This document shows, piece after piece, positions 41,101-50,100 of a stretch of DNA of 64,000 bases. The stretch covers positions 20,193,196 to 20,257,195 of the forward strand of contig JABAKD010000016.1 of assembly GCA_012845835.1 (NCBI GenBank). Reading direction: 5' to 3'. How positions within the stretch are numbered: the first letter of the stretch is position 1; each line of letters starts with the position of its first letter. Source of the DNA: Undaria pinnatifida. Its lineage: Eukaryota > Sar > Phaeophyceae > Laminariales > Alariaceae. The position numbers and the translations under genes are program-made. The notes under the pieces were generated by a model that worked only from the letters and a program-made list of their open reading frames with translations, was not told where the DNA came from and made no database searches.

Positions 41101-44100
41101 AGGTTGCACTTGCATCCTTCCTCAAAGTAGTATTTTTTTGTGCGAGGTACGATACACGAGCTCCTCAATTGAGGAGGACTCTTAGGATTTTTTTTATGCT
41201 TCAGTCTTCCTACCGTCACACCCACCTCGTGCAGAAACATGTTCGAACGTTTTAAGTGGTCCTTCATCAGGACAAGCAGGAACATATGCGAGATCGAGAA
41301 CACGTCCTGGTCGGCACGGCAGGGCGTCCGCAACTCAGACATAGTCTCAGGAGGCATGATCCCCAAGGTCCCGTGGCCCTGCCTCTCGTCCCCAAAGGCT
41401 GCCGTGCCGTTTCGATGGAGTAGTTTATCAGAGTGCGCCCCATGGGCGGGGTATTGCCAGGGGATGCCACGCACGAAAATTTCCGTTGGCAGTGGCCAAG
41501 ATAGCGGTACCGGTGCAAGTGGTTACGGCGGTGGCGGCGACAGCGGCGGCGGCGGCGGCGGCGGTGAAGCGGCGGCAAATTAGCAGTGCGGAGGTGATAA
41601 GGCTGGGACGCGACAAATTCACGAGAAAATGGCGACAAGTACAGGGGGGATGTACATTAGTGCTTTTGGCTGGGCACGAACGTTCACACAGGCAGAGAGG
41701 GAGGGTGCACGGCAGCAACGGAGCAGTGCCGGAGGCTGCGCGGGATGACGCTTAATTTCGAAAGGGTGTGCGACACGGCGGCCTTTGCAAGCACGACACA
41801 CTAGTAGCACCTCAGAATCGTGCTTACCAAATCGATCTTCGCAATCAAGCGACACGACACTCAAAATCCACCATCGCTTAGTTGCTGTCATGTTCACTAT
41901 GGTCTTAACACTACGGCTGTGCAAAAAATCAGTAACCCCCGCCCCCCCAACCTCCGGCCAGCTTGCTGCACTACGACGAAATATCTCCTCGAGGCGGCCG
42001 ACTTTGGAGAACCTTAGAAGAGACGCGGGGCCTTGGGGAGCATGCCCCCTAAAACGATTTCGGAGCTACGGATTTCCTGCCGCGCTGATGAGGACGTGTT
42101 CCCGGTCGCGCACATGTTGCTCATGGTTGTCGCCATGCATGGCTTGAAACGTCAAAACTTGTTCCTTGACAAGATGGGCGTTCGTAGTGCGACCTTGATA
42201 ACGTTCGATCAGTTTTTCCTCAAGGTTATGAACGCTGATCTCGTTAAGAAACCTGTTTTAATGTTTGAAGTTATCCTTCGACACAACCAGGAGGACCATG
42301 TGACCGACGGCGAAGTCGTCCTGGTCAGCGCGGTAGAGCGTGAGTAAATCTTGACATCGTGGCAGGGGGCGTGATCCCCCAAGATCCCTTTCCCCTTCCT
42401 CTCGACCTCGAACGTTGTCGTGCCGCGTCTATATGAAATGGTCGGTCAAAATGCAATCCATGAGCGATTGGTTTGCCAGGGGATGGTGTCGTATATGGAA
42501 ATGGCCGGCGTGGCGGTGGCAAAGATAGCGGCAACGGTAACGGTGGTGGTGGTGGCGATGAACACATGATATAGCTGTTGCTAGGAAGTCACGCAGCAAT
42601 AAACTTGGAACTGCCGTCAAGTTGTATGTGTTTGTGGTTGGCGGCGGTGGCTGTTGCTTCAGCGATCTCGAAAGGAGTCGCTGTTGTTTGGCGGGGTGGA
42701 AACTAGAAACTCGCATTCACTCGTGAAAATAGAAGTAAGGAGGGGATAAGGTACAGGGCGCCACAAAAACAAGAATAAGTTCCAACAAAGAGCATGGAAA
42801 ACGTACTGAAATTCTCGAAGGTGGGCACGAACGCTCACACAGGTAGATTGAGAGGGAACACGGCAGCAACGGCGCGAAGGTGGAGGCTTCGCGGCATGGA
42901 GCTGGATTTCGAAGTGGTGTGCGACACGGCAAAAAAATTGCAAGCACAACACACTATTACCAGCGCAACATCGTGCACACCACAAACTTTATTCACGCTC
43001 ACCGCTCCTGCGTTCACGCCCTCCTGCTCGCTGCATCTCGACTAACTATTTCACCGACGCGGTAGCTTTGGTAAATACCACGAAGAGGCACAGGAGCAAA
43101 GGGCATCATGCCCCCTGAAACGATATCGGAGTTACGCACGCTCTGCCGTCCAGACCAGGACGTGTTAGCGGTGGCCCACATGTTGCTGTTGGATGTGGTC
43201 TAGGATAACCTCAAACATCAAAATAGCTTTCTTAACAAGGTGGGCGTTCTTAGTGCAACCTCCAAAACGTTTGATCAAACGTTTTGGAGGTTGCACCAAA
43301 AACGACGACCTTGTTAAGAAACCTGTTTTGACGTTCGAGGTTGTCCTTGACCACATCCAACAGCAACATGTGTGCGGCCGCGAAGACATCCTGGTCAGCG
43401 CGGCAGGGCGTGCGTAGCTCCGATATAATTTTAGAGGGCATGGTCCCTAAGACCCTATGCCTCTTTCTGGTTCCTCCAAAAGCTACCACGTCGGTGAAAG
43501 AGTAGGTCGCGATGAAGTGAGCGGTGCCTTAATCCTTGTTGGATGGCGTATATCCCGCACCGATTGTCTGCGCTATAGACCAAGATGTCTTCGCGTTTAC
43601 CCATACGTTGGCCTTGGACGTGGTCCAGAATAACACCAAACGTCAATACAGATTTCTTACCAAGGCGAGCGCTCCTAGCGCAGCCTCCGAAACGTTGGAC
43701 CAGAACTTGATCCAGAGTTTGGGATCGAGTGCAAAGAACGTCCACCCTGTTGAGAAACGTATTGTGATGATTGGAGTCATCCTTCGACACAACCAAGAGG
43801 ATCCTGTGACCGACGGCGAATGCGTCCTAGTCAGCGCGTAGGGCGTGTGTGGTTCCCATATCGCCTCTGGGGATAAGATCCCCGACGATCCCGGGCCCAC
43901 GGCCTCTTGTCCCCCAAGGCGGCCGAGCCGCGTCGATAAAATAACTGGTCAAAGCGCAATCAACGAGCGCTTTTATGCGAGGGGATGCCACATACTGAAA
44001 AAGCAACCGGCGGTGGTCACGGAAGCGGCAACGATGGCGGCGGTGCGGCGGTGAACACATAGTGGCTGTCTCGAGGTAGTACAGTGGTCGCTAGGTAGTA

Positions 44101-47100: not shown

Positions 47101-50100
47101 TCCACTACCTGCAGCCCCCCCTCCCCTGCTGCCGCCGCCCCACGCACGCCCCAGGTTTGCGCCGCGCCCCCCCCCCCCCCCCCCCCCGCATCTATCCTAG
47201 GAGATAGTTGGTGACCACAGATGGCCCAAAGGGAGGGAATAAGTTAACGAACTTAAATAACCCATGATGTGGAAGAACGTAATGAGCGCACGAACGTTGG
47301 AGGTGCTTATATCAGGAGTAGGGACGGTGCTCCGTCTGAAAGGGACGCGTGGTCATGGGTCAAACGAATAAGGTAGGCAACAAATGAACACGCTGAATGA
47401 ATACGCTCCCGCTAGCCTCACGCGCGTTGTGCATTCTCTTAACGAGAAAATTGTTGCTCACTCACCTAACGCAAGGCCAAGATCGATCAGCTTCGCATTG
47501 GGGCCAGTACCGGCCAGACCCGGAAATATGATAACGTTTTCCGGCTTAAGATCATTGTGCCCGATGTTGTACCCGTGCAGAAAGACGGCGCCGGCGATGG
47601 TCCCGGCTAAACAGCTGAGCAGCAAGCACACGAAGAATCGAACAGATTGAAACAGCAAGCACGCGTATACACGGGATGCGCGGCGTTTCCGAATGTTAGA
47701 AATATTCCGTTTCGTCATCTGGCATTCAAACATGGTAAGCGACGGCTCGGCACCAAAAACACGCGCAATGCGGTCAAGGCGTGCGGCCGCGGCGTCCACA
47801 GTAATACCTACCAGGGTAGTAGCTACGCACTAGCAAGGGTCGTTGACGGCGGTTTCTTCAAAATTTTGCCGTCCGTCACACGATAAATTGCGGTCACTTG
47901 ACATATTTTTTTGACGGTGTTTGTTCCGGTCGTACCATCCACACATGAAAAGGAAATACAGCATCCAATGAGTTCGCGCTCATGAAAGATCTTGCCAATC
48001 GGACCTAAATAACTCACCCATCACCCTCAATTCCACTTTCCTGAATTATTGTGATTGAAGCACTCTGTGTTGCGATTAGCTAATTTCAGTGCAGTACAAC
48101 GGTACGAGCGTGCGCGCGTTACGTATGATACTGATGCGTGCGTATTAAATCCTCGCAGGCTACTGTGTAGTTCACCGTTATAGAAGAGATGGTACTACTG
48201 CTCTACGGAAGGATGTTCGACATATATCGGAACGGCATCTACGCTACGTTGTCGGAGGCCGATCAAAAACATCTTTTGACCAGCATATTGCTGGAAGCTA
48301 CCCGATATTTCGGTCAACAGGGTGCAGCCACATTGCAATGGGGGGGTAATGTAGGACAGTTTTCATGTTTGCTGTAGCTGAAGGTTGTACTGGGAGGAGC
48401 GGGAGGGGGAGGGGGGGTCATGGGATTTAATGCGATTCATACCGGAAGACGAATGACGGCGGTGAACCAACAACTTTGGACCAGATCACCGAGAGGGTTC
48501 TACCACACTCCCTGCGCTGGTGGCGATAACCGCTAGGGTACTCAGTTGAGCCAGTTGCCCACCAGAACTCACGAAGATACGCCAGCGCAATCGATGAAGC
48601 GCCGGACCAGCTTTTATCGTATGCAAGGTCGTGTGTTATCGATTGCATTAGGCTTTGGACTTGCGCAATGTCACCGCGTTTATCTCTTGCTTATACTGTG
48701 CGCATTATGTTCCGTTTGAAAAAAAAAATATGGTCGTACTTGCTCTCAGCAACCAAACAGCGAAACGTTTCCGTGGCCGTGATGGGTAATGGAGAAAATT
48801 ATTTGGCTTCCGACGATACTGGCTGGTTTTCGATAAACGTTGTCTGGATTTCGACATATTTTGCCTGTGTTTCGAGGATTTTGGTAGATTTTCGATGATA
48901 TTGGTTGATTTCGACAAAAATTGCCCGATGTTTGACAAAGTTCGGCTGTTCTTCGAGGATGATGGCAGTTTTGGGATTACTTTGCTAGATTTCGAGGGCG
49001 TGACCTTTTCTAGTGTCTACCAGCAACGCTAAATGCAGCAGCGCAGCAGTGGCGGCAGCCCGAGGGGAAAAAAACAGCACACAGCCTCACCCTATACGCC
49101 CTCCCAAGCTCATCTTCGTCAAGCCCCACGCGTGCTGGGTAAATTCGCCCAGTCCGAGCTCGAACGACATCTGCATATTACTGAGGTTTCGATCATCCAT
49201 CGCTATGGCTCGGGCGATATTGGGATGCTCCGATAACCTACAGTACCGTAAGGGAGGGCGAATCGTGACGCACGAGAGGCGGCAGTAGTACGTGCGAGGG
49301 CCGCATATAAGTGTAAAATTGTGTGTATCTAGTGTGGAAGTGTCCAAAAAATAGTCGTGTGAATTTTAACATGGTCGGCTTTCTTTCCGAATAGAAAATA
49401 CTGCTCGTTTTTTTCCGGACAACTTCCATACAGGTGGGTCAGCCGAGGGTTGGGATCGGGACTAGGGGGGGTTAGGGTTAGATTTTATGGCATTTCGTTA
49501 TCCTAAAACTATTTCTATAACACTTGAACTACACGCCGGACGCAAAGCATTTCACTTTTGAGTTGTATTTCATGTGTTTTTTACGAGCCTCGTCTAGGTG
49601 GCTCAGACGCGAAGGGTGCCGGGGGGGGAACACAACTATCACGCACGTACCTACCGCATGCCTGGTATGATAGATTACAGTTCACCCCAGCCTGTATACC
49701 ACATCCCCATAGTATACCACCCAGGTGATAAATATTCCAAAATCCTGCACTACCACCCGATTTATCACCCGGGGTGCGTTGAATACCACACTCCCCTCAG
49801 TATACTACGACTGGTGATACAAATCTAAACCCAGAATATTATCACCAGGGGTGTAGAAAACGATAAGCTTGTTTCTGTTGGGTGACAGTCTCTGCTGCGC
49901 ACGCATGCTGCACCAGGTGTTCAGGAAACATTATCATTTTTTTCTCACACTTTTACTTTCCAGCTTCTGGACAAACCGTGGTCACAGGTGTCGTCCCTTC
50001 TCCCCCCCGGTTCTTGCCTTCAATTTTTATCGCGCATAGGGTTCAGCAATCCCACTGCTCGTCGATTATTCATCGAGTGTTGCTAACTCACGCTCTCGCG

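Follow-up and report, generated by a model that had tools for sequence, protein, structure and literature searches.

Inverted and tandemly repeated copies of a kinase activation-segment exon in an intron of Undaria pinnatifida

Exon copies in the gene B intron

The window analyzed here is a stretch of 64,000 nucleotides from the brown alga Undaria pinnatifida (GenBank assembly GCA_012845835.1, contig JABAKD010000016.1, positions 20,193,196 to 20,257,195 of the forward strand), and positions are counted from its first letter unless stated otherwise. It contains a protein kinase gene, here called gene B, which extends over 35666-55159 on the minus strand. The intron between the exon for the catalytic loop (ending at 47466) and B1, the exon for the activation segment (41226-41398), holds an array of inverted copies of B1. 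The features of this intron are listed in Table 1.

The two exons flanking the array join in frame. The catalytic-loop exon ends in phase 1, and B1 adds 2 + 171 nt before its GTGGGT donor. The joined peptide matches Pfam family PF00069 (Pkinase; E = 7.7e-11, 42.3 bits against a cut-off of 31.7), and its closest solved structure is DAPK1 (E = 2.9e-06). Kinase similarity at the protein level, as proposed in the initial annotation of this locus, is therefore confirmed for the joined exons. Taken singly, none of four exon peptides (B1 and three open copies) matches a Pfam family, and the kinase identity of the open copies comes from their alignment to B1 and its paralogs. Gene B looks maintained, because its differences from the paralogous gene C are distributed over codon positions 1/2/3 in a coding-like manner in three pieces: the activation exon (17/7/26), the catalytic exon (13/4/18) and a piece of the N-lobe (9/5/13). 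A scan of viral contigs for a relative returned one locus (L009), which shares 13 residues around the catalytic motif only and was dropped. The long open stretches at 3833-7105 (1,090 codons) and 35666-38119 (817 codons) are apparently the low-complexity C-terminal parts of kinase genes A and B, respectively.

Table 1. Positions of the exons, exon copies, spacers and larger blocks in the gene B intron. P denotes the forward-arm clade and M the reverse-arm clade.
Feature	Position	Strand	Remarks
B1, likely working activation-segment exon	41226-41398	-	173 nt; CAG/CC ... GAG/GTGGGT
Intron spacer U, upstream of B1	41399-41830	-	Homologous to repeat-unit spacer and gene C intron
First block of two units	41951-44450		Matches 44706-46816 in pieces
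P copy	42001-42173	+	One in-frame stop; acceptor AG lost
M copy	42240-42414	-	175 nt; stop
Direct-inverted-direct structure relative to 45756-46299	42992-43960		Alignment to plain unit
P copy, left arm of 43026-43523 palindrome	43067-43239	+	One in-frame stop
P-type copy in sense orientation, right palindrome arm	43310-43482	-	173 nt; open; PSK for PPE; donor GTCGTC
Truncated P copy	43494-43664	+	Homology from 43559; direct orientation resumed after inverted segment
M copy	43748-43919	-	172 nt; stop
Dispersed repeat between the two blocks, outside the unit	44453-44705		Genome search
Second block of two units	44706-46903		Self-comparison
P copy, antisense to gene	44756-44928	+	173 nt; open
M copy	44995-45169	-	175 nt
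P copy, antisense to gene	45830-46002	+	173 nt; open
M copy	46086-46258	-	173 nt; stop in exon phase (direct reading of sequence)
Catalytic-loop exon, gene B (HNDLKPEN ... LIDLGLAL)	47466-47616 (start approximate)	-	Donor GTGAG at 47465

Iterated nhmmer searches (cut-off E ≤ 1e-3), seeded with the four exons named in the initial annotation, identify 11 exon copies, B1 and 10 extra ones; the converged search finds none in the rest of the window. Read in forward coordinates, B1 on the minus strand is followed by five pairs, each consisting of a plus-strand copy and then a minus-strand copy with their 3' ends facing (starts at 42001/42414, 43067/43482, 43494/43919, 44756/45169 and 45830/46258). 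The description of five units with one copy on each strand thus holds for the five convergent pairs, but the regularity is incomplete: the second pair consists of two P-type arms, the third has a truncated plus-strand copy, and B1 stands alone without an inverted partner. As the same annotation stated, three of the extra copies retain the exact length of 173 nt and an open phase, namely 43310-43482 on the minus strand and 44756-44928 and 45830-46002 on the plus strand.

Self-comparison of 40-48.5 kb places all direct and reverse-complement diagonals within 41.2-46.9 kb, in agreement with the inverted arrangement first proposed. The palindrome at 43026-43523 can be aligned to its reverse complement over 498 nt with 81.5% identity (E = 1e-136), and other self-inverse stretches lie at 45876-46210, 44792-45132 and 42035-42379. 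As a control, 27 consecutive stretches of a 164-kb region were considered. The 6-kb stretch from 42001 has 5,686 bp of reverse-strand self-matches; of the remaining 26, 20 have none and six have some, with a maximum of 1,102 bp. In the direct orientation, the two blocks of two units match one another over 41951-43426 and 44706-46200 (77.7%) and over 43578-44413 and 45916-46816 (72.6%). Between them stands the dispersed repeat 44453-44705, for which the genome search gave 3110 first-look candidates; 40 matches including itself were scored, the other 39 at 79-87%. Stretches similar to this repeat (~240 bp) occur near genes A and C and at 14725-14928.

Among the three open copies, the PPE motif at the end of the activation loop is retained only in 44756-44928, in which SSR replaces the TLG of B1; it reads PSK in 43310-43482 and IPN in 45830-46002. 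Loss of the PPE glutamate, as in 43310-43482, would be expected to harm a kinase. This same copy is the only one of the 10 extra copies to combine sense orientation, an intact frame and flanking AG and GT, and its donor is altered from GTGGGT to GTCGTC.

Kinase paralogs of gene B

Gene B has close relatives on either side. Gene A is encoded on the plus strand, with its activation exon just left of the window and its C-terminal exon at 3833-7105. Gene C lies on the minus strand ~48 kb to the right, as located by tblastn on neighboring stretches. The B1 peptide has at least 48 matches in the genome, 10 of them within the array (B1 included). Of the 38 matches outside the array, 25 have E ≤ 1e-4, and these comprise 23 on contig C22 (19.48-21.47 Mb) and two on contig C1. 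A stop is present in only one of the 25 paralog exon matches, and in the 22 paralog exons retrieved with their flanks the same coding segment is preceded by AG and followed by GT. The 23 related activation exons at C22:19483197-21472578 form a cluster on both strands. Some of its members are nearly identical, and the exons at 20492016 and 20543370 encode identical peptides. From these comparisons, the cluster appears to be a gene-family expansion with recent members.

At all 22 paralog loci that were extracted with 1.5-kb flanks (22 of the 25), there is a single exon match (E ≤ 0.01); coverage is partial for introns exceeding 1.5 kb, for instance that of gene D. The gene C intron (~2 kb) is fully covered and contains one exon together with stretches homologous to the array spacers, and it serves as the unexpanded comparison. 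A genome search with the palindrome as a DNA query yields 12 matches; the array accounts for 10, and the exons of genes C and D for the others. In these sequences the expansion is seen at gene B only. A weak copy of the 3' end of the gene C exon, with its own GTGGGT donor, is located directly downstream of that exon (L018:4989-5040; 88989-89040 on the window scale). The end of the activation exon may have a tendency to duplicate that is not confined to one paralog.

Order and mode of duplication

The relationships among the copies were assessed with an exon tree, from which the truncated copy (43494/43559) was omitted and in which 11 of the 22 fetched paralogs were kept for brevity. One clade (P) consists of 42001+, 43067+, 43482-, 44756+ and 45830+ (support 81.1/80), and the other (M) of 42414-, 43919-, 45169- and 46258- (support 90.3/93). 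The branching within the two clades is mirrored, and a tree of the spacers recovers the same two block pairs with bootstrap values of 99 and 100. Forcing the arms to pair unit by unit makes the exon tree 84 log units worse (approximately unbiased, AU, test, p = 2.4e-6). Because P and M are sister clades and unit-wise pairing is rejected, one foldback took place before the units multiplied. Thus foldback copying of a single exon, as suggested at the outset, is retained, but not as one foldback per unit; the data call for a single primary event and one secondary event. The accompanying statement that whole-gene tandem duplication does not explain the array is borne out.

The copy at 43310-43482 is exceptional in that it has a P-type sequence in the M orientation. 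It belongs to the structure at 42992-43960, which aligns with a plain unit in three segments: 42992-43426 in direct orientation (45756-46200), 43105-43523 in inverted orientation (46218-45789) and 43578-43960 again in direct orientation (45916-46299).

A likely course of events starts from the state seen in the kinase cluster to which gene B belongs, with one activation exon per examined paralog locus and an intron that in gene C is still ~2 kb long. Template switching during replication would have copied a segment of ~260 bp (~50 nt of upstream intron, the exon and ~40 nt of downstream intron) as sense, antisense and sense, producing M, P and B1 together; origin in one event would explain the missing inverted partner of B1. 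Judging from the tree and the alignments, the unit composed of spacer U, M and P was then duplicated, followed by the block of two units, all in tandem. As the structure shows, a second event at one unit generated the direct-inverted-direct segment and with it the palindrome 43026-43523. The copies would subsequently have drifted with little or no constraint at the protein level and none on RNA pairing, which is the best-supported course for this step, if not a clean one. B1 presumably remains the working exon, and the other copies would be removed along with the intron during splicing.

Template switching at replication forks is outlined as a model for interstitial inverted triplication (PMC10766183). 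The direct-inverted-direct order of 42992-43960 relative to 45756-46299 is shared with origin-dependent inverted-repeat amplification (ODIRA) and with duplication-inverted triplication-duplication (DUP-TRP/INV-DUP) rearrangements, as these are outlined in PMC10766183 and PMC4352052, and the same order is proposed above for M-P-B1. The present array differs in being small (~0.26-0.43 kb), intronic and old (20-30% diverged), and in having subsequently been duplicated in tandem. Among the matches listed for inverted, palindromic or tandem intronic exon arrays and for brown-algal kinase clusters, no title or abstract describes a similar array. Exons duplicated in brown-algal ROCO genes are reportedly functional, on the same strand and leucine-rich-repeat (LRR)-coding. 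The likeness to the outline of that study (PMC11378527) is exon duplication in a brown alga, whereas the copies described here are decayed, inverted kinase exons. The locus offers a layered record in a host gene, in which inverted copying was followed by tandem duplication at sub-kilobase scale and for which an unexpanded paralog is available for comparison.

Constraint on the copies and alternative explanations

We consider it likely that the array is the product of an old inverted triplication of a single exon that was followed by tandem amplification and mainly neutral decay, rather than a working switch. The sequence is real and unusual, and its most likely cause is ordinary. In four independent pairs within the array, differences are spread evenly over the codon positions (46/47/52, p = 0.81); the truncated copy was left out of these counts and of the ratios of nonsynonymous to synonymous substitution rates (dN/dS). 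When neutral substitution is simulated without insertions or deletions, a frame of 57 codons remains free of stops in 63% of runs with 0.1 substitutions per site and in 45% of those with 0.2. Among the five complete P copies, three are open, about the neutral expectation, and none of the four M copies has both the 173-nt length and an open frame. Open exon copies of the correct length are therefore fairly often expected by chance at this divergence, and alone are no evidence of alternative exons. The share of third-position differences among P copies (0.375) is matched by 13-14% of neutral simulations and is not unusual. Reading the four frame-broken M copies in the B1 frame gives a dN/dS of 0.63. 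A low ratio is thus not special to the open copies, and part of the deficit is apparently unrelated to coding.

Several observations weigh against this interpretation. Averaged over ten P-P pairs, dN/dS is 0.58 (range of the pairs 0.37-0.84), a value as low as this being reached in 2-4% of the simulations of neutral evolution along the P tree (neutral mean 0.91-0.94, standard deviation 0.22-0.25; P clade only, three starting copies with 300 runs each). The dN/dS comparison between copies that the initial annotation recommended is thereby divided, with equal codon positions on one side and a weak opposite signal on the other. The length of 173 nt is kept in all five complete P copies and in one of four M copies. 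Differences between B1 and P copies are coding-like in each of the five pairs, with 9-14 at the second position and 25-28 at the third (p = 0.014-0.13); those between B1 and M copies are less so (p = 0.07-0.69). With respect to origin, the exon tree slightly favors P+M outside B1+C+D (support 73.8/80), and the grouping B1+P+M is not rejected (AU p = 0.26). Beside the gene C exon there is a second match, weak and partial (52 nt, E = 0.018), and decayed copies beside distant paralogs could be missed because the exon profile matches distant paralogs weakly. The majority consensus of the five P copies is open, with dN of 0.23 and dS of 0.92 to B1; from these sequences, the constraint on B1 itself and an ancient constraint in the P lineage cannot be separated. 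Early or weak constraint on the P arms is possible, which is not evidence of present use.

It is unlikely that the copies serve, or formerly served, as alternative or mutually exclusive activation exons, perhaps exchanged by DNA inversion. The three open copies of 173 nt, which include the sense-oriented 43310-43482 with its flanking AG and GT, favor such a role, as do the low P-P dN/dS and the coding-like B1-P pattern. These are offset by the equal codon positions in the independent pairs, by the similar dN/dS of the frame-broken M copies and by the proportion of open frames expected under neutrality (0.45-0.63). Moreover, two of the three open copies are antisense, the sense copy has PSK for PPE and an altered donor, and no sense-oriented M copy combines the 173-nt length with an open frame. 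The alternative activation loops and exon switching originally envisaged are hence not upheld. Tandem exon duplication with mutually exclusive splicing, as sketched in PMC9013439, likewise involves repeated exon copies beside the original, but here about half of the copies are antisense and constraint is weak or absent.

We also regard it as improbable that the intron gives rise to hairpin-derived small RNAs that target B1 or paralogous kinases, as in the origin of plant microRNA (MIRNA) genes by inverted duplication. Four of the five palindromes were folded as minus-strand transcripts (the fifth, at 43.5 kb, was omitted), and the predicted hairpins have z-scores of -30.9, -18.3, -9.7 and -6.4. 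On this modeling, hairpin RNA is physically likely; a use of such RNA is hypothetical. The earlier proposal of hairpin RNA from the intron is thus supported by very stable predicted folds, but not by any sign of selection on pairing: G-U is not in excess over A-C at changed pairs on the transcribed strand (61 vs 51, p = 0.40 for the five palindromes; p = 0.08-1.0 singly). A protected 21-nt window along the exon is not clear either (minimum divergence p = 0.08, variance p = 0.14, best shared 21-mer p = 0.046, all uncorrected). Within the gene B transcript, the P arms run antisense to the kinase exon. In this orientation they match B1 exactly over 19 nt, and gene A and two paralogs exactly over 17 nt. 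Among nine targets scanned, the best antisense 21-mers have one mismatch to B1 and two to C, D, A, p20492 and p21472, but three targets (c1_534, p19903 and p19862) have none with ≤3 mismatches, and sense 21-mers are equally or more common for C, D and p21472. In addition, the 21-mer matches fall where the protein motif itself is conserved. No known RNA family is found in the window at gathering scores. A more elaborate version, in which an intronic battery of hairpins uses its antisense arms to silence or mask the activation exons of gene B and its close relatives within the 2-Mb cluster, in the manner of intronic MIRNA birth, is quite improbable. The inverted-duplication origin outlined for plant MIRNA genes (PMC3237417) resembles the array in that a gene segment is present in convergent copies that can fold into a long hairpin, whereas here they occupy the gene's own intron in five units, with no pairing constraint found. 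If small RNAs do arise from the array, it would represent the birth of a regulatory hairpin inside the intron of its target.

Capture of the exon by a mobile element is very unlikely. Parts of the spacer (~46484-46668 and 46899-46990) do recur at 24 dispersed genomic sites (71-85%; 24 of 30 matches), but these are short spacer pieces, and the palindromic exon part is found only in the array and in the paralog exons C and D. Three minus-strand frames and one plus-strand frame have no transposase-like Pfam match; the former give only a weak match to DUF7567 (E = 0.16) and the latter none. A dispersed mobile element was rejected as a candidate, as spacer pieces but no copies of the unit were found at unrelated places in the genome. 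The repeat-unit spacer seems to contain old dispersed repeats (46484-46668 and 46899-46990). An assembly artefact, for example an untrimmed long-read hairpin, is highly improbable: palindromes are a known form of artefact, but hairpin artefacts are expected to leave near-identical arms, and the arms here are 18-34% diverged, with the P and M clades mirrored across units.

Elsewhere in the window, a dispersed repeat of ~260 bp occurs in six copies with ~90-97% identity on both strands (13894-14165, 17797-18064, 25190-25444, 50557-50823, 52546-52810 and 62706-62979), and simple arrays of TATCA (x60) and ACA (x65) are present at 59731-60031 and 58704-58899, respectively.

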